Assembly (NCBI GenBank): GCA_947631535.1
Contig: CANRLU010000013.1
Coordinates: forward strand, 1-35,662
Origin: an uncultured Clostridia bacterium
GTDB taxonomy: Bacteria > Bacillota > Clostridia > Oscillospirales > Ruminococcaceae
Reading direction: 5' to 3'
DNA length: 35,662 nt
Below, one piece after another: positions 6,253 through 23,813 of this stretch (positions are counted from its first letter, which is position 1; every line of letters starts with the position of its first letter). The notes below the pieces were generated by a model. It saw only the letters and a list, made by a program, of their open reading frames with translations. It had not been told where the DNA came from and searched no databases. A program made the position numbers and the translations under genes.

Positions 6253-7056
6253 GTGATGGCGGTGGATATATACGTTGACGTTCTCGTGGTGCTGAATACA
6301 TATATGGCCTGGATACTTCTTGGCCTCACGGCGGCGGTGTCCCATACGTATTCAAAGCCGAAGTTTCGGGCGGCGGCGTCCTTTCTTGGAGGGCTGAGCT
6401 CCCTTATGATACTCATTCCGCATGGTGGCAAGCTTTTAAGCTTTACAGTGCTTATCTTCAAAGCGCTGTCCTGCTTCGCGATAACCGCGGTGTCATTCTG
6501 GAGGCAGTCGCTCAAAAAAACGGCGGCGCTTTCGCTGCTTTACCTCGGGCTGAATATGCTTTTATATTCGGCGCTCGAACTTTTGCAGCGGCTCTTAAAG
6601 CTCGGAAAAACTGTGGTTTACAGCGGCTTTGTGTATATCGACATTTCTCCGATGACGCTTATATTATCTACCGCGGTGATCTATATCATCGTGTGCTGTG
6701 TATCCAAGTTGTTTTCGCGAAGGCTCGGCGGCTCCAATTCCTACCGCGTAGACTTCAAAGTCGGATGTAAAGCCTTTTCGCTTGACGGAGTTGCCGACAC
6801 CGGAAACACCGCCCGCGACCTCTTTTCGGGGCTGCCGGTGATAATCTGCACCGGTGTGGAGATAAAAAGCGACGGTTTTATACGTGCCGTCCCGTATAAA
6901 ACCATATCCGGCGAGGGGATACTCTACGCCGTAAACGCAAAGGACATAAAAGTGACCGACGAAAACGGCGTTTCAAAGGAGGTCTCCGCGCTCGTGGCGG
7001 GCGTCTCCGGAGGAGAACGGCGAGCGGTCTTCGATCCGAAAATACTTACAGGCTGA
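6253..7056 (+). CDS. spoIIGA: Sigma-E processing peptidase SpoIIGA
   Basis: SpoIIGA is a membrane aspartic protease that removes the pro-sequence from pro-sigma-E in the mother cell. The product (267 aa) has about five hydrophobic segments in residues 5-150 and a cytoplasmic C-terminal protease domain. The catalytic motif DTGNT is at residues 182-186, almost the same position as in the Bacillus protein. The start is uncertain. GTG at 6253 and ATG at 6256 are both possible, and the nearest ribosome site (ggagg, 6233-6237) is 15 or 18 bases away; an in-frame stop at 6244 prevents a longer product. The identity is fixed by the adjacent sigE, 16 bases downstream. Confidence 0.93.
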
Positions 7057-7072
7057 AAGAAAGGGTAAAATT

Positions 7073-7783
7073 ATGTTCAATGAGCTTTTCAACACGCTTA
7101 AGGCCGTCATAAGGCGCTTGCTTGGCGGCCGCGACACCGTAGACTACGTAAACGGCCCCGATACGCTCCCGCCGCCGCTCGGCCCCGAGGAGGAAAAACG
7201 GGTGTTCGCCATGCTTTCCACCGAGCCGAAAAAGGCGCGGGAAATACTTATAACTCACAATCTGCGGCTGGTGGTATACATATCGAAAAAGTTCGAGTCA
7301 ACAGGCATAGGTGTTGAGGATCTCGTTTCTATAGGAACGATAGGGCTCATAAAGGCCGTGAACACCTTTGACCCCTGCAAAAACATAAAGCTTGCGACTT
7401 ATGCCTCGCGTTGCATCGAAAACGAGATACTCATGTACATCAGAAAGACCAGCCAGCAGCGCAACGAGATCTCCATCGACGAGCCTTTAAACGTCGATTG
7501 GGACGGCAACGAGCTCCTGCTTTCCGACGTTATCGGCACCGACGCCGACGAGGTAGGCAGCCGCCTTGAAAGCGAGGCGGAGAAGCGTCTGCTTATTGAA
7601 GCTGTGGAAAATCTTGACGGCAGAGAGCGGTTTATAATGCAGATGCGCTTCGGACTCCTCGGCGGCAAGGAGATGACCCAAAAGGAAGTTGCCGACATAA
7701 TCGGGATATCGCAGTCGTACATATCGCGCCTCGAAAAGAGGATACTCAAAGAGCTAAAAAAAGAGCTGGAGGCTATATGCTGA
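7073..7783 (+). CDS. sigE: RNA polymerase sporulation sigma factor sigma-E (pro-form)
   Basis: Sigma-E directs early mother-cell transcription during sporulation. The 236-aa product carries a basic, amphipathic pro-sequence (about 1-24), then [12 protein letters not shown]. By alignment with Bacillus pro-sigma-E, cleavage would fall around D24/Y25. Region 2 contains [27 protein letters not shown] and [17 protein letters not shown]. Region 4 ends with the helix-turn-helix [21 protein letters not shown]. It follows its processing protease spoIIGA, the standard arrangement, and sigG follows after about 90 bases. The ATG at 7073 is preceded by gaaagaaagggt. Confidence 0.96.
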
Positions 7784-7810
7784 CAGGCAAATAATACCTC
7801 TGCTTTTACT

Positions 7811-7840
7811 GAATACAGGCAGGCTGCGCAGGCAATAATT
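7811..7840 (+). promoter_or_regulatory. Candidate forespore (sigma-F/sigma-G type) promoter of sigG
   Basis: GAATA (7811-7815), a 15-base spacer, then GGCAATAATT (7831-7840) fits the published sigma-F-type pattern (GYWTA, 15 bases, GGNRANANT) with one mismatch in the -35. It ends 33 bases before the sigG start, in the only gap between sigE and sigG. In Bacillus, sigG is transcribed by sigma-F and then by sigma-G itself, so location and function agree. Confidence 0.6.
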
Positions 7841-7873
7841 ATCTCATAACTTCTGTTTGGGAGATCATTGCCG

Positions 7874-8644
7874 ATGCAGTATAATAAAGTAGAGATAAGC
7901 GGGGTAAACACCTCGAAGCTGAAGCTGCTGACGGAAGACGAGAAGACGGAACTGCTTAAAAAAGCTCGTTCTGGCGACAAAAAGGCCCGCGAGGAACTTA
8001 TAGAGGGCAATTTGAGGCTTGTTTTAAGCGTGATACAGAAATTTATGAACCGCGGCGCCCAGCCCGACGACCTCTTTCAGGTGGGAGTGGTTGGGCTCAT
8101 AAAAGCAATAGACAACTTTGATCTGTCGCTCGACGTGAGGTTCTCGACATATGCCGTGCCTATGATAAGCGGAGAGTTGAGGCGGTATCTTCGCGACAAT
8201 AATTCCATAAGGGTGAGCCGCTCCACCCGTGACCTTGCCTACAGGGCTATGCAGGCCAAAGAATCGCTCTCGCGCGGAAAAGACCGCGAGCCGACGGCCG
8301 CAGAGATAGCCGCCGCACTCGGCGTGCCGAAGTCGGAAGTGGTTTTTGCGCTTGAATCCATCAGTGAGCCGATATCTATCTACGAGCCGGTGTATTCAAA
8401 TTCCGGCGACGTCCTTTATATGCTCGACCAGCTCGGCGACAGTTCGAGCGACGAGAGCTGGATCGACGAGATAATGCTCCGCGAAGCAATACTTATGCTT
8501 TCGGAACGCGAAAAGAATATCCTCTATCTGAGGTTTTACCAAGGGAAAACGCAGGTAGAGGTCGCGCAGGAGATAGGCATATCGCAGGCGCAGGTCTCGC
8601 GGCTCGAAAAAAGCGCACTGTCAAGAATAAAATCGAAAGTATGA
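7874..8644 (+). CDS. sigG: RNA polymerase sporulation sigma factor sigma-G
   Basis: Sigma-G drives late forespore transcription. The 256-aa product begins with the sigma-G hallmark NKVEISGVNTSKL. It then has region 2 (GNLRLVLSVIQKF, DDLFQVGVVGLIKAIDNFD, RFSTYAVPMISGELRRYLRD), region 3 (about 118-180) and a region 4 helix-turn-helix ending GISQAQVSRLEKSAL. I chose ATG 7874 because it reproduces the usual N-terminus (MxxNKVE) ten bases after ggga; a TTG two codons earlier is possible. Sigma-F is a close relative, but the N-terminal motif and the position after sigE favour sigma-G. A terminator follows directly. Confidence 0.95.
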   Translation: MQYNKVEISGVNTSKLKLLTEDEKTELLKKARSGDKKAREELIEGNLRLVLSVIQKFMNRGAQPDDLFQVGVVGLIKAIDNFDLSLDVRFSTYAVPMISGELRRYLRDNNSIRVSRSTRDLAYRAMQAKESLSRGKDREPTAAEIAAALGVPKSEVVFALESISEPISIYEPVYSNSGDVLYMLDQLGDSSSDESWIDEIMLREAILMLSEREKNILYLRFYQGKTQVEVAQEIGISQAQVSRLEKSALSRIKSKV

Positions 8645-9000: not shown

Positions 9001-9654
9001 ATGAAGAAACTGTTTGCCGTTATCATCGCTTTGCTAATGCTGCTCGGTTTATGCAGCTGCGGCGATACCTCTTCCGACGTTTTGGAAAACGATTCCGATG
9101 CTGTTGAATCCGAGTCTTCCGACGGCGAGCCCGCAGCGGCTCCCACTATTGACGACTTGAGGGGTACATATCTCGACGACGTATATGAGAACGACTATTT
9201 TTCCATTACCTTTACCAAGCCGTCCGACTGGAGATACAGCACCGTCGAAGAAATAGCTTCCGTTTTTAATTCCGAATCGGTCGATGCCATTGATCCCGAG
9301 TCGTGGGGCGACACTTTTTGTGATTTGGTCGCCATTGACGACAGCACCGGAAACAATATCAACATTATGTATTCGTTGACGTCGGAGTTAGATCTCGACG
9401 AATATCTCAGGCAGAGCGTCGAGGAAATAGACAGCCTTAGAGAGGCCCTAAATATGACCGCCGAGTTTTCGGAGCACGATGACGTAAAGCTCGGAAACGT
9501 CGATTTCAGGCGCGTCGAGATCACTACTGTCTATCAGGGCGTTACCATTCACCAGGGCTGCTATGTGGCGTATAAGGACGGCGCACTTATAAACATCACG
9601 ATAACCGTCACGAACTACACGCCCATAGATACTTTAGAGGAGCTGTTTTCTTAA
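9001..9654 (+). CDS. Predicted lipoprotein of unknown function
   Basis: The 217-aa product has a typical lipoprotein signal: MKK, a hydrophobic core (4-16) and a lipobox ending at C20 (LCSC). An acidic, serine-rich linker follows (about 21-50), then a compact domain of about 165 residues with alternating strands (DYFSITFTKPSDWRYS; VTIHQGCYVAYKDGALINITITV). The fold has the flavour of small secreted domains that bind or protect something at the cell surface, but I recognise no family and assign no function. It has its own strong promoter and ribosome site (acggaggtc) and no obvious operon partner: tyrS downstream has a separate promoter. Confidence 0.85.
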   Translation: MKKLFAVIIALLMLLGLCSCGDTSSDVLENDSDAVESESSDGEPAAAPTIDDLRGTYLDDVYENDYFSITFTKPSDWRYSTVEEIASVFNSESVDAIDPESWGDTFCDLVAIDDSTGNNINIMYSLTSELDLDEYLRQSVEEIDSLREALNMTAEFSEHDDVKLGNVDFRRVEITTVYQGVTIHQGCYVAYKDGALINITITVTNYTPIDTLEELFS

Positions 9655-11250: not shown

Positions 11251-11279
11251 TTGAATTGCCGCGAAAAATATGTTATACT
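11251..11279 (+). promoter_or_regulatory. Sigma-A-type promoter of the GHL10 lipoprotein
   Basis: TTGAAT (11251-11256), a 17-base spacer and TATACT (11274-11279) lie 31 bases before the ATG at 11311. The gap after tyrS also holds a 4-bp GCCG/CGGC hairpin (11220-11232) followed by T5 further on, too weak to call a terminator. Confidence 0.65.
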
Positions 11280-11310: not shown

Positions 11311-13089
11311 ATGAATATCTTCAAGAGGATTCTTTGCGCTTTTATATGCGCATTGATGTTAAGCTCCTGTGCGCACCGCGAAGCGGCCGGACCCGCTCCC
11401 GAGCCGTCGGTGAGGTTCGAGACTTTCGGCACTGCCGCCGAGACGGAGGCGACCACAGCTCCGGAAACGCTGAACACCGAAAGATTTTCCGAAATTTCTA
11501 CTGCTCCCGCGACAACCGTTTCCCATATGACAGACCCTGTCACGACCGCTTCCGCTGCGACTTCTGCCGACACCGAGTCGGAGCGCGGCTATGATATTCA
11601 GCCGGCGTCCGGCGTTATGTACGCTTCTTCCGACGTAAACGTAAGAGAGCTCCCCGATGCCGACAGCGAACGCGTCGGCCACCTCGACAGGGGGGACGAA
11701 GTCAATATTACCGGCCTTGTTTCAAACGGCTGGGTGAGAGTGGAATTTAAAGGCGGCGAGTATTTCGTCAACGGAAACTACCTCACTTCCGAGGGCGTAT
11801 CGGAAAGCGCCGCGCCTCCGGAAGTTACTACACCGCCCACGACCCCGACCGAAACGCTGCCCACAACGCAGCCTACGACCTCCGTCACGACCACTGTAAC
11901 AACTACGGCTCCTACCACCGAGGCTCCCGAAACAACTCCGCCTCCCGAGACTATAAACGAAGAGCTCAATATTTTGACGGGCTCCAACGGATACACCGCA
12001 CTTAATTATCCCGTTCAGAAGGCGGTGTGGTTCGCATATCTTGATATCGACCCTATGCTCAAGGGCTCGTCCGAAGCCGCCTTTGCCGAAAAAATAGGTG
12101 AAGCGTTCGACAATGTGCACGACCTTGGCTGCAACACGGTCTACGTTCACGTTCGGGCTTTCGGCGACGCATATTATTTCTCGCAGTATTACCCGTTCAC
12201 TGCCGCTTTCAGCGACACTCTCGGCAGTGCCCCTCCCTTTGACCCGCTTTATATTATGATAAACGAGGCGCATAAGCGCGGGCTTTCATTCCACGCGTGG
12301 GTCAACCCTATGCGCACCACCACCAAAGACCGCTATGCCGAAATGGACGGCTTTTATCCGCTTAAGCAGTGGTACGATTCGTCCTCGGCAAACGGCACGT
12401 TCCTCGTTTACGACAAAGATACCTCATATTACTGGCTCAGCCCCGCATATCCCGCCGTCAGGCAGCTTATATGCAACGGCGTTGCGGAGATAGTCACGCG
12501 GTATAACGTCGATGCCGTTCATATCGACGATTACTTTTACCCCACAACTTCGTCTTCATTCGACAAAGCCGCCTTTGAAGCCTCCGGCGCTTCCGACAGG
12601 GCAGCGTGGCGCAAAAGCGTGGTGAGCACCCTTGTCGGCGAGATATACCGCACCGTTAAAGCCTGCAATCCGAGCGTTCTGTTCGGAGTTTCCCCGCAGG
12701 GGAATATCGACAACAACCTGAACCGCCTTTATGCCGATGTTGAGACCTGGTGTTCCGCGCCCGGGTATCTCGATTACATCGTCCCGCAGATATACTACGG
12801 TTTTAACGATAAGCTCGCCTTCGACACTGCCGCCGAGCAGTGGGAAGAGCTCGTAAAGCTGCCGTACATCTCGCTTATAGGCGGAATAGCGGCATATAAA
12901 GTCGGGCTCAATTCCGAGTGGTCGAGCGGAAAGATACTCTCAAAACAGACTGACTATCTTTCTGACTCTGATGTTTTCGGCGGCATTGCGCTTTACAGAT
13001 ATGATTCGCTGTTCGGCTCGGCAAATTCCTCCGAGCGCAGCATGCGAAAGGAGCTGCCGGAGCTCAAAACCGCTCTTTCAGAATTTTAA
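11311..13089 (+). CDS. Lipoprotein with SH3 domain and GHL10-type glycosidase domain
   Basis: The 592-aa product has a lipoprotein signal ending at C20 (LSSC) and a Thr/Ala-rich spacer to about 95. A bacterial SH3 domain covers about 101-160 (SDVNVRELPDADS, WVRVEF), and a Thr/Pro-rich linker about 165-215. A GHL10 (DUF187, glycosyl hydrolase-like 10) TIM-barrel covers about 236-585. The barrel keeps AWVNPMR (329-335), DAVHIDDYFYP (401-411) and YIVPQIYYG. The GHL10 family includes E. coli DigH, which cleaves glycan strands stripped of peptides. SH3 domains often bind peptidoglycan, so a membrane-anchored wall hydrolase is a reasonable inference. The ATG follows ggggaggtg. The next gene, 17 bases on, carries a related barrel. 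Confidence 0.88.
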   Translation: MNIFKRILCAFICALMLSSCAHREAAGPAPEPSVRFETFGTAAETEATTAPETLNTERFSEISTAPATTVSHMTDPVTTASAATSADTESERGYDIQPASGVMYASSDVNVRELPDADSERVGHLDRGDEVNITGLVSNGWVRVEFKGGEYFVNGNYLTSEGVSESAAPPEVTTPPTTPTETLPTTQPTTSVTTTVTTTAPTTEAPETTPPPETINEELNILTGSNGYTALNYPVQKAVWFAYLDIDPMLKGSSEAAFAEKIGEAFDNVHDLGCNTVYVHVRAFGDAYYFSQYYPFTAAFSDTLGSAPPFDPLYIMINEAHKRGLSFHAWVNPMRTTTKDRYAEMDGFYPLKQWYDSSSANGTFLVYDKDTSYYWLSPAYPAVRQLICNGVAEIVTRYNVDAVHIDDYFYPTTSSSFDKAAFEASGASDRAAWRKSVVSTLVGEIYRTVKACNPSVLFGVSPQGNIDNNLNRLYADVETWCSAPGYLDYIVPQIYYGFNDKLAFDTAAEQWEELVKLPYISLIGGIAAYKVGLNSEWSSGKILSKQTDYLSDSDVFGGIALYRYDSLFGSANSSERSMRKELPELKTALSEF

Positions 13090-13106
13090 AACTGTTGAGG
13101 ATCCTT

Positions 13107-16007
13107 ATGAAGAAGTTTATTTCGCTGCTTCTGGCTATCGTGATACTGTTTGCGCCTTTCAAAGAGGCGGGGTTTTGCGTACGCATTTTCGCCGATTCAC
13201 TTGACGGCGAAACCGCCGGCCTGCCCTCGGGCGGATATATCTCTCTGCCCGACAGTATGCGTGCTTCGATAATAACGATAGGTTCCGACTTTTTCACCGA
13301 CCCTAACCAGACAGCCGAAACTACCCAATCCGAGATAGACGCCATACTCAACGATTTTGAGAGCTACGGCTTCAACTCCGTAATAATTGAGACATCATAC
13401 GACGGCGTTATCTACTACGAAATAGGGGAGCAGGTCTTTACCCACGGCTCTCCGCTTTCTATGCTCATAGATTCCGCCGTTGCGCGAAATTTCTATATTT
13501 ACATCACATTCGATATCAACGCCGCGCTGCGCTCGGAGGAGAGCGGAGATCTCGGCGACAAAATAAACTATCTCAGCTACTGCGTTCACAGGCTGACAAA
13601 CCGCTACTTGATCGACGGTATTATTCTCACCGATTACTACGCCGAAAACGGCGCCGAGAGCTATGCCGAATACCGCCGCAGCGGCTCGGGTATAGGCTAT
13701 GAGCAGTGGCTTTTAGACAACCGGGCGTATCTTTTCGGCCTTGTGAGCAAGGCAATAAAGGCGACCAACAGCTCTATGGCAGTCGGCATCGGCATCGACA
13801 ATGCCTGGCTCAACGATTCGACCGACCCTCGCGGCTCAGACACCAAGGACGACTTTGAAGCCCTTGCCGATGGCTATTCCGACACTCGGGGATATATCCT
13901 CGACGGCCTCGCCGATTTTATGATAGTATACTGTTACGGCGGCCTTGAAAGCGTCGAGCTGAAGTTTAAAAGCGTTGTTTCGTGGTGGAGCGCCCTCGCC
14001 GAAGAGGCGGGCATACCTATGATAGTCAAACACGCCAACGAGCGCACCAGTTCCACCGATTCCCGCTGGGACGTTTCGCAGATAATCAAGCAGATAGACG
14101 AGTGCAACAAATATGCCGGCTACCGCGGGAGCATATTTGAATCGTATGAGCAGCTTAAATCGAACGAAGTCAGCACCGATGCGCTCGTCCGCTATTATGC
14201 CGGCCAGATAAACGTAAGCGACCTTTACAGCCGCCTTAAGATGGTACTCCCCACCAAGACCGAGTTCACCACCTACGAGCCTACCGTCAAATTCCAGGGT
14301 TCGTTTGACTCCAACTTCGACGTTTACTTCAACGGAGAGCCAATAACCCTCAACGAGGCGGGTAACTTCTACTTCGAGGAAGAGCTCGACGTCGGTATGA
14401 ACACCTTCACCTTCAAGAACAAGGCGGACACCGTAAGGTACCGCATCACGAGAAAAGTCAAGGTATTGCAGAGCATAGAGCCCGTTGAGGGCGCGACGAT
14501 GTATGTCGAGGGCGAAACGAGGATAGGCGTGAACGTAGTTGCCTACAGCGGCTCGAAAGTCACCGCCACCCTTAACGGCGAGACCATCACCCTTGACGAA
14601 GAGGAGATCCGCTCGGATGACCTCGACGCCAACACCAACTACACCCACTTCACCGGATACTTCACCGCTCCCGAGGGGATTGTCGGCGAAGAGCAGGACC
14701 TCGGCGTGATAAAGATAAAGGGCAGCTACGGCGACTACAGCAGCGAGAGCGCCGACGGTTCCCGCGTCATAGTCAACGCGATATCCCGCTTTGCCGAGGT
14801 TGCGCAGGTCATAAGGATAAAGCGCGACAACACCCTCACCTACGACTATTACACCACCGACAGTATACCCGACCCCGCTTCTCCGAGGCTGCCGGCCGGA
14901 ACAATAGATTTCCTCGTAAATTCCGTGACCTATAACACCACCTTCGAGGGCGTAAAGCAGAGCATAGATTACTATCTCACCGCCTCCGGCCTGAGAATAA
15001 AGGCCTCCGACTGCGACCTTGCCGATGGTTACACCGTTGTAAACAACACAGCCGTCTTTAACGGAGCTTACAACTCCGGCGGCGACACGGTGCTTAATTT
15101 CAGGCTCGATACTCAGACGCCGTTCACGGTGTCATTCTCGCCGCTAAGCTATGATAACCCCAACAAGGGCTCGTATCTGATAAACAATTTCGACCCTGAT
15201 TACGTCCTCATCACATTTGACTATCTCTCGAACGTTTCCGGAACACCTTCGTTCTCGGGCGACAGCCTGTTCAGCTCGGGCGAGTGGCAGACGGTGAGCG
15301 TAAACGGCGAGCAGAAATATCAGCTCAGGCTCAGGCTGCGCAAGTCGGGCGTATATATGGGATATTCCGCCAAATACGACGGCTCCGGCGGGCTCGCGAT
15401 AACCTTTAACGGCTATAACACGAGTCTTTACGGCACGGTCATAGTAGTCGATCCCGGGCACGGCTACAACACCAGCGCCACGAGCATCGACCCGGGTGCA
15501 GTCGGGCACGTAGTCGAGAACAAGATAAACCTTGCGATTGCCAAGGAGCTCACCGAGCAGCTCCAGAACGCCGGCGCGACCGTTTATATGCTCCCGAGCG
15601 ACCGCGAATATATCAGCGTATACGACCGCTCGGAATACGCTCGGCGATACAGCCCCGACATCTATATTTCCGTGCACTGCAACTCCGTCGAAAACGGCGA
15701 AGGGGTGCGCGGAGTCGAAGCCTATTACTTCACGCCGTTCAGCCAGCCGTTGGCGGCGCTGGTGAGTGAGAAGATGGCCGGCTACTACAGGAATAACGTC
15801 TACGGCGACGGCAGAAACCGTAACCGCGGCGCTAAATACAATTATTTTGCCGTTACTCTTGAACAGGAGTTTGCATCGATACTCGTGGAATGTGGCTTTG
15901 TGACCGACTACGACGAGGCTATGGCCCTCAATAATCCCACGCATCAGTCGGGGCTCGCAGGCGCCATTGTGGAAGCTGTTGAGGAGTATCTCGCAAGAGG
16001 CAGATAA
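13107..16007 (+). CDS. GHL10-like barrel fused to N-acetylmuramoyl-L-alanine amidase (amidase_3)
   Basis: The product is 966 aa. A signal peptide (1-29) is followed by a GHL10-like barrel at about 50-350, in which the HIDDY site of the neighbour reads ILTDYY (173-178). Beta-rich, Ig-like segments follow at about 385-450 and 455-560, with further uncharacterised sequence to about 770. A C-terminal amidase_3 domain covers 777-962. The amidase has its expected zinc ligands H785 (DPGHG), E804 (VVENKIN) and H857 (SVHCN) and catalytic E928 (LVECGF). It cleaves the MurNAc-L-Ala bond, removing stem peptides from glycan. ATG 13107 follows gagg by six bases; TTG 13095 is an alternative. It is probably co-transcribed with the preceding GHL10 lipoprotein. 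Confidence 0.9.
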   Translation: MKKFISLLLAIVILFAPFKEAGFCVRIFADSLDGETAGLPSGGYISLPDSMRASIITIGSDFFTDPNQTAETTQSEIDAILNDFESYGFNSVIIETSYDGVIYYEIGEQVFTHGSPLSMLIDSAVARNFYIYITFDINAALRSEESGDLGDKINYLSYCVHRLTNRYLIDGIILTDYYAENGAESYAEYRRSGSGIGYEQWLLDNRAYLFGLVSKAIKATNSSMAVGIGIDNAWLNDSTDPRGSDTKDDFEALADGYSDTRGYILDGLADFMIVYCYGGLESVELKFKSVVSWWSALAEEAGIPMIVKHANERTSSTDSRWDVSQIIKQIDECNKYAGYRGSIFESYEQLKSNEVSTDALVRYYAGQINVSDLYSRLKMVLPTKTEFTTYEPTVKFQGSFDSNFDVYFNGEPITLNEAGNFYFEEELDVGMNTFTFKNKADTVRYRITRKVKVLQSIEPVEGATMYVEGETRIGVNVVAYSGSKVTATLNGETITLDEEEIRSDDLDANTNYTHFTGYFTAPEGIVGEEQDLGVIKIKGSYGDYSSESADGSRVIVNAISRFAEVAQVIRIKRDNTLTYDYYTTDSIPDPASPRLPAGTIDFLVNSVTYNTTFEGVKQSIDYYLTASGLRIKASDCDLADGYTVVNNTAVFNGAYNSGGDTVLNFRLDTQTPFTVSFSPLSYDNPNKGSYLINNFDPDYVLITFDYLSNVSGTPSFSGDSLFSSGEWQTVSVNGEQKYQLRLRLRKSGVYMGYSAKYDGSGGLAITFNGYNTSLYGTVIVVDPGHGYNTSATSIDPGAVGHVVENKINLAIAKELTEQLQNAGATVYMLPSDREYISVYDRSEYARRYSPDIYISVHCNSVENGEGVRGVEAYYFTPFSQPLAALVSEKMAGYYRNNVYGDGRNRNRGAKYNYFAVTLEQEFASILVECGFVTDYDEAMALNNPTHQSGLAGAIVEAVEEYLARGR

Positions 16008-19217: not shown

Positions 19218-20087
19218 ATGGGTATAAAAAACGCGCTTGAGCTTTTAAGCGGCAGGCCGCTCGAAGCGCTTAGCAGTCTTACGCCTGCGGAGCTTTCCGA
19301 AATAGACGAGATACGCCTTAGGGTGAACAGGCCGGTATCGCTCTCTGTAGGCCGGCGCGACGTTATTCTCGGCGGAGTGACGGCTTCTCCGGAAGACATC
19401 GAGCACACGTTCAAAACGGCGTTTTCATATTCGATGCACAGCTATTCAAAGGAGCTTTCGCTCGGCTGCATAACCACCGTCGGCGGGAACCGCGTCGGCA
19501 TATGCGGCACAGCCGTCACCGCTTCCGATAAATTCACCGTGGATACGCTCAAATACATTTCCTCGATCAACATAAGGATAGCCCGCGAAGTAAAGGGCTG
19601 CGCCGACGGCATAATAAACGACTGCTTTTCGGGCGGACTCTGCGGGCTATTAGTGGTGGGACCGCCGTCGAGCGGAAAGACCACGGTTTTAAGAGACATG
19701 GCGCGGCAGCTCGGAAGCCGGTTTAAGATATCGCTCATAGACGAGCTCAACGAGATCTCCGCCACGCACCGAAACATCGCGCAGAACGACGTGGGCAGCC
19801 TTACCGACGTATTTGTGGGGTATCCGAAGCATGTGGGCGTTTCAACGGCCGTGAGAGTGATGTCTCCCCGCGCGATTATCGCCGACGAGATAGGTTCGGA
19901 AGAAGATTGCAGGGCGCTCGAATATGCTCTTCACTGCGGAGTAAAGCTTATAACCGCCGTTCACGGCGAGAGCGTTTCCGACGCCGAAAAAAAGCCTGCG
20001 GTACAAAAGCTGATGCAGGAGGGAGCGTTTAGCTGGGCGGCCGAGCTGAGTCCCGAGCGCGGGATAAGGACGGTAAAGCTTGATTAA
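19218..20087 (+). CDS. spoIIIAA: Stage III sporulation protein AA (ATPase)
   Basis: SpoIIIAA is the secretion-ATPase-like component of the SpoIIIA-SpoIIQ complex spanning the two membranes around the forespore. The 289-aa product has an N-terminal domain (about 1-135), a Walker A motif GPPSSGKTT (148-156), and a SLIDELNEIS / RAIIADEIGSEEDC region. A histidine-containing ITAVHGES element, as in type II/IV secretion ATPases, follows. The ATG at 19218 has a strong aaggaggg site eight bases upstream. It overlaps spoIIIAB by 8 bases. Confidence 0.95.
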   Translation: MGIKNALELLSGRPLEALSSLTPAELSEIDEIRLRVNRPVSLSVGRRDVILGGVTASPEDIEHTFKTAFSYSMHSYSKELSLGCITTVGGNRVGICGTAVTASDKFTVDTLKYISSINIRIAREVKGCADGIINDCFSGGLCGLLVVGPPSSGKTTVLRDMARQLGSRFKISLIDELNEISATHRNIAQNDVGSLTDVFVGYPKHVGVSTAVRVMSPRAIIADEIGSEEDCRALEYALHCGVKLITAVHGESVSDAEKKPAVQKLMQEGAFSWAAELSPERGIRTVKLD

Positions 20088-20559
20088 GTTTATGCTCTGC
20101 ACGGCGCTCTGCGTTTGCTCGCTTATGTCTTCATACGAGCTTTATGCGGGTTCGCTTAAAAAGTCGCAGACGGCAAGAGAGCTCGCCGAGACCGTTGACA
20201 GGATAATTATGATGCTTCGCTACGGTGCCGCCGACGTTTACGAGATATGCCGCTCGGCGTTTTCCGATTCGGAAGAGTTCAAAGCTTTCCGCTCAATAAA
20301 CGGCGGCGACTTCGGTGCGCAGTGGAAGGCCGCCTGCGATTCAATAGACGCAGACGACGATTCAAAGCGGCTTTTTGAGCGCGTAGGGCGGATCTTAGGC
20401 ACCTCCGACGCAGAGTCGCAGGCGGCGGTTCTCGGAGGCGTTTCAAAGGAGCTTTATGAGCACGCCAAGGAACTGAAAGAGCGTGCGGAGCGCTCTAAAA
20501 GGCTTTATCTCACATTCGGAGCCGCGATAGGCCTCGGTATTTCCATAATGATAATTTGA
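20080..20559 (+). CDS. spoIIIAB: Stage III sporulation protein AB
   Basis: The 159-aa product has an N-terminal membrane segment (about 4-19) and a C-terminal hydrophobic segment (YLTFGAAIGLGISIMII). In between is a helical domain with RELAETVDRIIMMLRYGAADV. This fits SpoIIIAB, which resembles type II secretion inner-membrane GspF-like proteins. The start is TTG at 20080, nine bases after aagga; ATG 20092 is an alternative. The overlap with spoIIIAA implies translational coupling. Confidence 0.92.
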   Translation: MIKFMLCTALCVCSLMSSYELYAGSLKKSQTARELAETVDRIIMMLRYGAADVYEICRSAFSDSEEFKAFRSINGGDFGAQWKAACDSIDADDDSKRLFERVGRILGTSDAESQAAVLGGVSKELYEHAKELKERAERSKRLYLTFGAAIGLGISIMII

Positions 20560-20566
20560 GGTGGAT

Positions 20567-20761
20567 ATGGACGTAACACTCGTTTTTCAGATAGCCGGTC
20601 TCGGGATAATAGTTGCGGTGTTGAGCCAGCTTCTTAAGCGCGCAGAGAGGGACGAGCAGGCCCTGATGATAACGATAGCCGGTCTCGTAATAGTTATGCT
20701 TATGCTCGTAAACGAGATATCCGAGCTTTTCGACACCGTAAAAAGCACCTTCGGCTTCTGA
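20567..20761 (+). CDS. spoIIIAC: Stage III sporulation protein AC
   Basis: The 64-aa product has two hydrophobic segments (about 3-20 and 34-50) joined by the charged loop KRAERDEQ, the standard size and layout of SpoIIIAC. ATG 20567 closely follows gaggtgg; GTG 20561 would add two residues. Its TGA overlaps the next ATG by one base (TGATG). Confidence 0.93.
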   Translation: MDVTLVFQIAGLGIIVAVLSQLLKRAERDEQALMITIAGLVIVMLMLVNEISELFDTVKSTFGF

Positions 20762-21150
20762 TGGACATAATCAGAATTGCGGTAATATGCCTTGTCGCGG
20801 CGGTATTGGCAAAGGTGATACAGCCCACCAACCGCGACCTTGCGGCGCTCCTTTCGATATCTGCCGTAATATTTACGGCTTTTATCGCGGTAGACGGCAT
20901 ATATCAGGTATTCGGAGGGACCGAAAGGCTGTTCGGAACCGTCGGGCTGGGAGGAGGATATCTCGGAATAGCTTTTCGCGCGCTCGGGATATGCTATATA
21001 AGCGAACTGTGCTCGTCGTCCTGCCGCGACTGCGGCGAGACCGCTCTCGGCAGCGTGCTCGACATTTCGGGACGCGTAGCCGTGGCGCTTTTGTGCCTGC
21101 CGCTTTTAAGGGAATTTACTGAGGCAGTAAAAAGTATTCTGGAGAAATAA
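20761..21150 (+). CDS. spoIIIAD: Stage III sporulation protein AD
   Basis: The 129-aa product has three to four hydrophobic segments and the family stretch KVIQPTNRDLAALLSI near residues 18-33. A helix, LGIAFRALGICYISELCSSSCRDCGE, is typical of SpoIIIAD; the run of cysteines there is notable. SpoIIIAC and SpoIIIAD are membrane parts of the SpoIIIA channel. It starts one base inside the spoIIIAC stop and ends directly before spoIIIAE. Confidence 0.93.
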   Translation: MDIIRIAVICLVAAVLAKVIQPTNRDLAALLSISAVIFTAFIAVDGIYQVFGGTERLFGTVGLGGGYLGIAFRALGICYISELCSSSCRDCGETALGSVLDISGRVAVALLCLPLLREFTEAVKSILEK

Positions 21151-22251
21151 ATGAAAAAACTTTTAATTATCGTTACGGTTTTTCTGTCCGCTGTAATTTT
21201 GAGCGTTCCCGTAAGCGCGCAGATGCAGGAATTTGAGGGAGAGATACGCTCCCGTCTGTCGGAGGCGGATACCGCAGATATATCCGACGGACTTGCCCGC
21301 ATAGGCGTAGAGCCCGACGATCCCGAAAGCGTCAAAGGCATTAGCGCCGAAGGGATACTCGGATATATAAAGAGCATAGTTATGGAGGCTCTTACCCGTC
21401 CTGCTAAGATCATACTGATAGTCGCGGCGATAGCTGCCGTCAGTCGGGTCGCGGCATCTTTGTCAGTAAAGGCGGGGCTTTACGGCGAGCTCTTCGTCAT
21501 AATCTGCTTTCTGGCGATATGTCCCTATGTCGCCGACACGTTCGGCTCGCTCGTAAATTCAATGCTCGGCTGTGAGGCATTTATGGCGTCGTACATACCC
21601 GTTTTCGCAGCGGTCACGGCCGCTTCCGGCAACGTTGCAGCGGCTGCCTCATATAACGCCATAGTTCTCTATTTCTGCGAGGCGGCTTCGGCCGTCGCGA
21701 CTACCGTTTTGCGCCCGATACTCGCATGTATGCTCGTTATGTCTGTCACGCAGGCGGTTAACCCCGACCTAAGAGGTCTGACCGCCGCCGTGAGAAACGC
21801 TCTTACCGTTATAATCGGGTTTATAATGACGGTATTTTTGGGAGTGATAGGCCTTGAAACGCTCGCGGGCAGGGGAGCGGAGGGAATAGCAGTCAAGGCG
21901 GGAAAATACGCCGTTTCGAGCTTTGTACCGGTGATAGGATATTCGCTTTCCGAGTCGTATAAGGCGGTCAGCCTGAGTCTGAGCGCCATTCGCACGACTG
22001 TAGGAACGTTCGGAATAATAGTGCTCTGCGTTTTTATGCTCTCGCCGCTGATAACCGCTGCGGTATATAAAATGGCGTTCTCGCTCTGCTCTTTGCTGTG
22101 CAGGCTGACCGGCGCCGACGGCATAGCCACCCTCGCAGGCGGACTTGCCGATGTATTCGGGTTCGCTTCGACGGTCCTCACGGTGTTTATGCTTATGTTC
22201 ACGGTGGCCACGGGCATGCTCGTTATCCTCGGGGGAGAGATGCTTTTATGA
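21151..22251 (+). CDS. spoIIIAE: Stage III sporulation protein AE
   Basis: The 366-aa product has a cleavable-looking signal (1-24, ending PVSAQ), then a soluble stretch to about 75. Some seven or eight hydrophobic segments follow to the C-terminus. This is the polytopic component of the SpoIIIA channel in the mother-cell-derived membrane. It begins right after the spoIIIAD stop and overlaps spoIIIAF by 4 bases (ATGA). Confidence 0.93.
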   Translation: MKKLLIIVTVFLSAVILSVPVSAQMQEFEGEIRSRLSEADTADISDGLARIGVEPDDPESVKGISAEGILGYIKSIVMEALTRPAKIILIVAAIAAVSRVAASLSVKAGLYGELFVIICFLAICPYVADTFGSLVNSMLGCEAFMASYIPVFAAVTAASGNVAAAASYNAIVLYFCEAASAVATTVLRPILACMLVMSVTQAVNPDLRGLTAAVRNALTVIIGFIMTVFLGVIGLETLAGRGAEGIAVKAGKYAVSSFVPVIGYSLSESYKAVSLSLSAIRTTVGTFGIIVLCVFMLSPLITAAVYKMAFSLCSLLCRLTGADGIATLAGGLADVFGFASTVLTVFMLMFTVATGMLVILGGEMLL

Positions 22252-22715
22252 GCTTTCTGAAAAACGCCGTCCTCACCGTCTGTATGCTTTCGGTGATAAG
22301 TACGCTCTTTATGATGCTCGTTCCCGACAGATTCCGCCGAGATATAAAATCGGTCATATCCCTTATTGCCGCCGTGGCGATCGTTACTCTGATACTCGGA
22401 GCCGACTTCTCGGACCTCGGCACTGATTTTAACAGTATTGAATTTCAGCAGAGCACAGCCTCTCGCAACAGACTGATACAGTCGGAGGTAGAGAGCCGCG
22501 CGGCCGACATTATAGCCTCGTTTCTTGAAGAAAACGGGATAAGCTGCAAAAATATCGCGGTGAGGACTACTATTGACGGGCAGAACAGCATATTTATTAC
22601 TGAAACCGATATCCTGCTTGACTCTTCCGAAAAAGAGCGAGAGCAATTTGTGAGGAGCATAATTGCGGAAAGGGTCGGCGACATAGAAGTAAAAATAAGA
22701 TATGAGGATAGCTGA
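22248..22715 (+). CDS. spoIIIAF: Stage III sporulation protein AF
   Basis: The 155-aa product has two N-terminal membrane helices (about 5-24 and 33-50) and a soluble C-terminal domain with a coiled-like segment followed by strands, as in SpoIIIAF ring-forming domains. The open frame extends further upstream inside spoIIIAE, but the ATG at 22248 gives the expected N-terminus (MSFLKNAVLTVC) and the ATGA coupling to spoIIIAE. It ends directly before the spoIIIAG start. Confidence 0.9.
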   Translation: MSFLKNAVLTVCMLSVISTLFMMLVPDRFRRDIKSVISLIAAVAIVTLILGADFSDLGTDFNSIEFQQSTASRNRLIQSEVESRAADIIASFLEENGISCKNIAVRTTIDGQNSIFITETDILLDSSEKEREQFVRSIIAERVGDIEVKIRYEDS

Positions 22716-23228
22716 ATGGGAATACAAAAAGTAAAAGACAGATTTCTTGAAGCCCTGAAAAAGTCGCCGAAGCTCAAGGTATATCTTTGCATAGCGGCGG
22801 TGTGCACGGCAGCGCTTCTGTTTATGAGAGCGCCTCCCGAAAAAGATGACCCGCTGGCCGAAACGGGGGCACTTTCCGCAGCGGCTGCGGAGCAGAGTTA
22901 TGAGCAGCGTCTCGAGTCGGAGCTTGAAGAGATAATTTCAAAAATACAGGGAGTTTCCGATGTAACGGTGATGCTCACTCTTGAGGGCAGCGACAGAAAG
23001 GTATACGTTGCCGACGTATCCGATTCCGATTCCAAAACCGAGAGCAAGACCGTTATCATAGGCTCTAAGGAGGCGCTTTTGCAGTCAACTGAATATCCGA
23101 GGGTAATGGGCGTGCTCGTCGTATGCGGCGGCGGAAACAGCGCCTCGGTGAAAGAAAAGGTGGTAAATGCGGTCTCTACCGTATTGGATATACCCGCAGG
23201 CAAAGTTTATGTAACAAACGCAAAATAA
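22716..23228 (+). CDS. spoIIIAG: Stage III sporulation protein AG
   Basis: The 170-aa product has a basic cytoplasmic start, one membrane helix (about 22-37), a variable linker and a C-terminal ring-building domain. That domain runs from about 70 (LEEIISKIQGVSDVTVMLTLEG) through YPRVMGVLVVCGGG to KVYVTNAK. In Bacillus, SpoIIIAG forms a large ring in the intermembrane space. It begins immediately after the spoIIIAF stop, continuing the operon. Confidence 0.93.
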   Translation: MGIQKVKDRFLEALKKSPKLKVYLCIAAVCTAALLFMRAPPEKDDPLAETGALSAAAAEQSYEQRLESELEEIISKIQGVSDVTVMLTLEGSDRKVYVADVSDSDSKTESKTVIIGSKEALLQSTEYPRVMGVLVVCGGGNSASVKEKVVNAVSTVLDIPAGKVYVTNAK

Positions 23229-23249
23229 ACATTCTCAAGGAGGATAACA

Positions 23250-23813
23250 ATGAGAAAGATCAACAGAAGCTTCAATTTAAAGGTGAACAAAAAACACATT
23301 ATCCTGGCGTGCCTTACGCTGTTTTTGGGGATAACCGTATATGCCAACTACAGGCTCTCTAAAGTCGAGATCCCCACGACCGACGTCGTTGACGGCGTAG
23401 ACCTTTCGGGTACATACGGCGAGGTGCAGTATGTAAACGGCACCGAGCTGTCGAACTATTCGAGCGAGGACTACTTTGCTCAGGCGAGGCTCGACAAGCT
23501 CACCTCCCGCGACCAGGCTGTGGAGACGCTGAAAATGGTCTTAAACGGTCAGGACATAACCGACGACGAAATGGCCGCCTACACTATGAACGCCGTGACT
23601 CTCTCTTCTCTTATAGAGAGCGAAACGACGGTCGAAAACCTGATTCTCGCCTCTGGCTATGAAGACTGCGTTGTATATCTCGACGGCACAAATGCGAGCA
23701 TCGTGGTGAAATCCGACGGACTTAGCTCGTCGCAGGCGGCGGAGATAAAGGACATTTTGCTCTCCGAGGTAGATGTTCCGAATGAAAATATTAGAATTTT
23801 TGAAGTAAAGTAG
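23250..23813 (+). CDS. spoIIIAH: Stage III sporulation protein AH
   Basis: The 187-aa product has one membrane helix (about 17-32) and an extracytoplasmic domain. The domain includes DYFAQARLDKLTSRDQAVETL (about 70-90) and a YscJ/FliF-like C-terminal half with SLIESETTVENLI and EDCVVYLDG. SpoIIIAH binds SpoIIQ across the intermembrane space and retains the complex at the forespore. It has its own aaggagg ribosome site, 22 bases after spoIIIAG, and ends the operon. The next promoter starts at the stop codon; no terminator is visible. Confidence 0.94.
   Translation: MRKINRSFNLKVNKKHIILACLTLFLGITVYANYRLSKVEIPTTDVVDGVDLSGTYGEVQYVNGTELSNYSSEDYFAQARLDKLTSRDQAVETLKMVLNGQDITDDEMAAYTMNAVTLSSLIESETTVENLILASGYEDCVVYLDGTNASIVVKSDGLSSSQAAEIKDILLSEVDVPNENIRIFEVK

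Follow-up and report, generated by a model that had tools for sequence, protein, structure and literature searches.

In the 35,662-nucleotide stretch of contig CANRLU010000013.1 from an uncultured Clostridia bacterium of the Ruminococcaceae (the window), two adjacent genes, P1 and P2, encode envelope proteins that are probably co-transcribed. On balance, we favor the reading that peptidoglycan is removed by the pair in two complementary steps, with P1 cutting glycan and P2 acting as an amidase that carries a pseudoglycosidase, and that both descend from one fused enzyme by duplication and reciprocal decay. The domains, residue losses, adjacency, fused relatives, and promoter pattern are read in the sequences; we infer which activities the enzymes have, in which order they act, that the dead barrel binds glycan, how the pair arose, and that its role is vegetative, in division or turnover. 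The two genes and the parts of P2 are as follows.

P1: 11311..13089, + strand, lipoprotein with lipobox LSSC, Ser/Thr-rich linkers, SH3_3 (residues 107-158), and a catalytically complete GHL10 domain (259-533)
P2: 13107..16007, + strand, secreted or anchored protein with a hydrophobic N-terminal stretch, pseudo-GHL10 barrel, all-beta region, and Amidase_3
P2 barrel: 13236..14210, + strand, about residues 48-372 (TTG-start numbering), with the fold of GHL10 but without its active-site residues
P2 middle region: 14211..15434, + strand, all-beta, perhaps immunoglobulin (Ig)-like sandwiches (from weak fold matches alone), below cut-off for every Pfam family
P2 Amidase_3: 15435..16004, + strand, with H785, E804, H857, and E928 (ATG-start numbering)

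The lipid of P1 would hold it at the membrane, with SH3_3 perhaps adding an attachment to the wall, and P1 would cut the glycan backbone. The Amidase_3 domain of P2 would strip the stem peptides and so expose the backbone for P1, and the pseudoglycosidase barrel of P2 most likely still holds the glycan, positioning the amidase.

Domains and active sites of P1 and P2

An earlier note on this DNA had described the first gene as a GHL10 lipoprotein with an SH3 domain, and the Pfam score, the lipobox, and SH3_3 agreed with that description. The GHL10 domain of P1 reached 168.6 bits against PF02638, above the gathering cut-off of 27.9. The lipobox LSSC (residues 17-20) was read by eye, and was likewise seen in L053, L054, and L059. 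The proposed active site of Cwp19 was mapped via the P1-Cwp19 alignment and then counted across relatives. P1 of the window kept W36, W127, R132, D195, D196, Q295, and Y297 (Cwp19 numbers). Among 36 stand-alone GHL10 barrels, nearly all of them P1, W127, N129, P130, R132, D195, and D196 were present in 35, the remaining one being a fragment at a contig edge, and Q295 and Y297 in all 36; the Q77 position held H in 30 of the 36, window P1 included. Three loci that are copies of the window (L001-L003) were excluded from these counts and from the first counts in P2 barrels. The lipoprotein and SH3_3 head of P1 (residues 1-200, window 11311-11900) also matched several proteins at other loci of the genus, whose C-termini are apparently different (e.g., G000:C7:14962-15396).

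The profile search for GHL10 and Amidase_3 that had been proposed earlier succeeded for P1 and for the C-terminus of P2, which reached 127.5 bits against PF01520 (cut-off 27), and failed for the P2 barrel, which at 20.5 bits remained below the PF02638 cut-off. The zinc-binding H-E-H and the catalytic Glu were present at the P2 C-terminus, thus bearing out the complete zinc amidase previously ascribed to the second gene. Structure comparison, which had also been called for, found that the P2 barrel adopts the GHL10 fold (Foldseek; VIA-align to Cwp19); both adjacent genes therefore carry GHL10-type barrels, as had been claimed, that of P2 being GHL10-derived by fold. The match list of VIA-align hardly covers the P2 middle region. 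Among the fold-search matches listed for that region, most were tandem Ig chains such as titin with TM-scores below 0.5, so the region was given no family.

Relatives of P2 were collected by searching genome contigs with a P2 alignment, and the best 80 of 157 were examined. The 80 loci are apparently from metagenome bins, mostly labeled Oscillospiraceae, Ruminococcus, or Clostridia, and yielded P2 alignments of 69 and 70 rows, window included, after the exclusion of near copies and cut loci. In a first set of 33 P2 barrels, 30 of them from the genus of the window, W127, R132, and Q295 never occurred, P130 occurred once, and the D196 position was occupied by G (18), D (14), or N (1). In the wider set of 69, W36, W127, P130, and Q295 were absent throughout, whereas R132 was kept in 2, N129 in 11, D196 in 15, D195 in 43, and Y197 in all 69. 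The HAWxNPxR motif and much of the segment that follows it were replaced or missing. P2 of the window reads T-D at D195-D196 and retains only the D196, Y197, and Y297 equivalents among the sites counted. Because the GHL10 active-site residues have been lost from its barrel, P2 looks like an amidase with a pseudoglycosidase, and glycan cutting should be expected of P1 only. The model of the earlier note, in which both barrels are active and P2 joins two working activities as a bifunctional glycosidase-amidase, is hard to reconcile with these losses, and we give it very little credence.

The P2 barrel is nevertheless under constraint, because it is conserved within the genus and because Y181, Y182, W238, N240, H313, N315, and F348 were found in all 69 P2 proteins. 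Mean pairwise identity across 30 genomes of the genus was 66% for the P2 barrel, 72% for the P1 GHL10 domain, 70% for the P2 middle region, and 79% for the amidase. Such invariance could also mean that the barrel has acquired a different catalytic function on a conserved pocket of its own, and two of the seven residues, N315 and Y182, occurred in none of 42 fused and none of 51 P1 barrels. However, Y181, and mostly W238, N240, and H313, are common to the fused relatives with an intact site. The only near-invariant acids in the mouth loops are D65, D259, and D263, of which D65 and D263 occur commonly in relatives with an intact site, and conservation in the mouth loops does not exceed that of the remaining barrel (Fisher p 0.34). 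A new catalytic function is thus distinctly unlikely, and the P2 barrel is most likely a pseudoglycosidase whose fold is preserved and which probably continues to bind glycan.

Fused relatives and the neighboring gene pair

Single proteins that contain an intact GHL10 domain, an all-beta middle region, and Amidase_3 were identified in other families of the order (L041, L042, L044, L048, L049, and L050). In a six-frame survey that included the genome of the window, P2 residues 1-770 were matched in 48 of 60 genomes, in some via the barrel alone. PF02638 was matched at 1e-20 or better in 170 of 245 genomes of the order, and from the matches listed 40 regions with long GHL10 frames and 20 with shorter ones were fetched. 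The amidase lay in the same frame as GHL10 in 39 of the 40 long frames, a count that gives no rate for GHL10 genes at large since these frames were picked by length; the 40th (L171) runs off its contig. R132, D195, D196, Q295, and the zinc ligands H, E, and H were present in all 39 fused proteins, and W127 and the catalytic E in 38 each. The fused proteins share with P2 its three-part layout, with homologous middle and amidase regions, but keep the GHL10 active site that the P2 barrel has lost. With one fused protein as the query, 15 of 245 genomes of the class gave almost end-to-end matches; these genomes belong to four families, none of which lies within the order. Regions around the 20 shorter GHL10 frames contained an adjoining P2 gene in three cases and another amidase gene in one. 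The 40 genomes with long frames held no P2-like gene besides the GHL10-bearing frames themselves (two in G083), at a threshold of 1e-25 that could miss diverged copies.

Two further features of these relatives were observed. Seven fused proteins of family f10 (L173, L180, L183, L186, L187, L190, and L192) are about 1400 amino acids long, with about 470-500 residues ahead of the barrel. Genomes G054, G138, G178, G212, and G270 of family f20 had five to seven GHL10 matches each at 1e-20, compared with one or two in most other genomes of the order among the matches listed.

A full P2 gene was present in 30 of the 31 genomes of the genus, the exception being G021 (84% complete), and a P2-like gene, judged by match score and reach, in 22 of 245 genomes. 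GHL10 was found in 11 of these 22 among the matches listed, as a stand-alone frame of 411-597 amino acids in ten and as a fused protein in one (G045). The amidase was seen at 78 of the 80 P2 loci, the matches in L081 and L103 stopping at the locus edge. The survey of related genomes that the earlier note had proposed found the pair at most loci: by profile, a P1-type gene lay directly upstream of P2, within 600 nucleotides and on the same strand, in 63 of 80, and 28 of these P1-type genes had an SH3 domain. A dihydroorotate-dehydrogenase-like neighbor was found in 29 of the 80. At 33 of the 80, P1 and P2 were present with none of nine other window genes, and 21 of these 33 had at least 3 kb downstream; the pair therefore persists in more than one neighborhood. 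Because GHL10 and amidase are fused in some lineages, with both sites intact, and adjacent in others, these results support their coupled action, as well as the earlier claim that the two belong together.

Proposed origin of the pair

The ancestor would have been one fused protein combining GHL10, an all-beta region, and Amidase_3, of the kind that is intact today in other Clostridia. After duplication, P1 would have retained catalysis on glycan without the amidase half, whereas in P2 the amidase half would have been retained and glycan catalysis lost. In barrel trees, long branches separated P2 from the intact GHL10s, so that the origin of P2 could not be read from them; they were dropped as a guide, and an insertion and the tree of C-terminal halves were used instead. 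A G-S-x-T insertion is common to P2 barrels, fused proteins, and DigH of E. coli, and is lacking in P1 barrels; its G247 was found in 42/42 fused, 23/23 P2 (23 of the 69 P2 rows being used), and 0/51 P1 barrels. Similarly, W238 occurred in 40/42 fused and 69/69 P2 but 0/51 P1 barrels, and H313 in 30/42 fused and 0/51 P1 barrels. In the tree of C-terminal halves, P2 and most P2-like proteins clustered with L185 (100/100), a fused protein with an intact GHL10 barrel (G068:C157:500-5317), while C_L037 fell outside. The tree of the amidase domain alone was poorly resolved. The shared indels and the C-terminal tree fit an old duplication of a fused gene followed by reciprocal decay into P1 and P2. 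In the barrel tree, the stand-alone label requires at least four changes among fused proteins, and some stand-alone GHL10 frames (L219-L221) keep a stub of the middle region. The middle region of L185 is itself P2-like, scoring 240 bits against the P2 middle profile vs. 21-96 in the other long frames that matched above 20 bits, and L185 is possibly a living intermediate.

Several observations weigh against the favored reading, its history included. P2 did not fall inside the fused clade of the barrel trees, one of which placed one P2 and one P2-like barrel on the intact-GHL10 side, and P1 was sister to the fused proteins with weak support (87/36). G045 holds both a fused gene and a P2-like gene, which fits an old paralogy rather than a recent split. 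No adjacent P1 was found at 17 of the 80 P2 loci, only two of which had fewer than 600 bases upstream, and G031 and G049 (L033 and L047; 84% and 93% complete) contained a P2-like amidase gene and no PF02638 GHL10 match. Among the genomes of the window's family that were listed, 7 of 19 had GHL10 and no P2 match. The last count, together with the wide occurrence of GHL10 in the order, would also suit two ordinary autolysins that lie side by side for general wall turnover and do not act in sequence on one strand. However, fusion in many genomes and adjacency in different neighborhoods exceed mere co-occurrence, and we regard this explanation as rather unlikely.

A more far-reaching version of the two-step reading is put forward tentatively, as a possibility that we would not yet back. 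In one lineage, duplication and reciprocal decay may have divided a fused amidase/GHL10 enzyme that is spread over several Clostridia families and was not found under its domain names in the literature searched. One product would be a lipoprotein that cuts glycan, and the other an amidase whose inherited barrel, by now a pseudoenzyme, holds glycan and presents the peptide-free strand to its partner. No description of a fused GHL10/all-beta/Amidase_3 protein was found under its domain names in literature that left subscription journals mostly uncovered, domain-architecture databases being outside the search. With few subscription journals covered, literature on Amidase_3 with lytic transglycosylase, fusion, and Ruminococc- likewise yielded nothing, and the accessible part of a Faecalibacterium co-expression paper contributes an enrichment term only (PMC9674144).

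Genomic setting and known systems

The pair is flanked on both sides by sporulation genes, namely SpoIIGA and two sigma-70 family factors (6253-8644) and spoIIIA-like genes (19218-23813). One further feature lies between tyrS and P1.

Promoter: 11251..11279, + strand, sigma-A-like, TTGAAT-17-TATACT with TG before the -10 (extended -10)

Taken alone, the site in the window is at chance level (12 sites in the region vs. 6.3 +/- 3.0 in shuffles). The same layout was found at 11 of the 12 loci holding tyrS, which are close relatives and not independent, and was matched by 0.08% of mononucleotide-shuffled segments, the pattern having been fixed post hoc after five sequences (four of the loci and the window) had been viewed. 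The locus without it, L064, has tyrS about 5 kb away. The conserved promoter before P1 points to sigma-A and growing cells. For a 217-amino acid open reading frame ahead of tyrS (window 9001-9654), Pfam gave no match at 1e-5 and NCBIfam only a weak one, to a lipoprotein family's signal region.

P1 and P2 could alternatively form a sporulation-specific stripping pair, as SpoIIGA, the two sigma-70 family factors, and the SpoIIIAA-, AC/AD-, AE-, and AH-like genes within about 10 kb would suggest. The sigma-A-like promoter before P1 speaks against such a role, sporulation promoters lying outside the scan, and P1 and P2 stay together at loci where no tested neighbor was found. Furthermore, the SpoIIP and SpoIID family matches sit elsewhere in the genome of the window. 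A sporulation-specific pair is thus highly unlikely. The amidase-then-glycosidase logic that the earlier note had proposed is already known in spore formers, where, as the accessible text of PMC6221140 describes, the engulfment pair SpoIIP/SpoIID combines an amidase with a transglycosylase that then acts on denuded strands. P1 and P2 resemble that system in joining an amidase with a probable glycan-strand enzyme, but belong to other protein families: neither PF07454 (SpoIIP) nor PF08486 (SpoIID) was seen in either protein when Pfam matches with E values of up to 1 were considered.

Cwp19 of Clostridioides difficile (GHL10, PDB 5OQ2/5OQ3) shares with P1 the domain and most of the proposed active-site set (E 9.3e-44), whereas with the P2 barrel it shares the fold and not the active site. 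According to the parts of the two reports accessible, Cwp19 acts as a lytic transglycosylase and is anchored in the wall through CWB2 (PMC6016235, PMC5765458), in contrast to the lipoprotein P1 with SH3_3, and the residue roles in its proposed active site are called conjecture by its authors (PMC5765458). DigH (YddW) aligns with P1 over 337 columns at 32% identity, with HAWxNP, DDYFY, and PQIY in both, and differs in carrying the G-S-x-T insertion. The order of the two steps could instead be reversed or simultaneous, because DigH is described, in the accessible part of PMC12288456, as specific for denuded glycan, whereas Cwp19 released peptide-bearing anhydro-muropeptides as well as products ending in peptide-free N-acetylmuramic acid (PMC6016235, in part). 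A preference of P1 for denuded glycan would be an analogy borrowed from E. coli DigH.

If fusion and splitting solve the same task in two ways, GHL10 enzymes of Clostridia would work with amidases on the same strand, which would give this little-studied family a role, open to testing, in wall turnover or cell separation of Gram-positive bacteria. The split form would also allow a natural comparison, since intact barrel, dead barrel, and fused enzyme differ from one another in defined residues. Nothing was found on a pseudoglycosidase in connection with peptidoglycan in the literature searched, subscription journals being mostly uncovered; an amidase directed to glycan by a conserved pseudoglycosidase would be an unusual arrangement.
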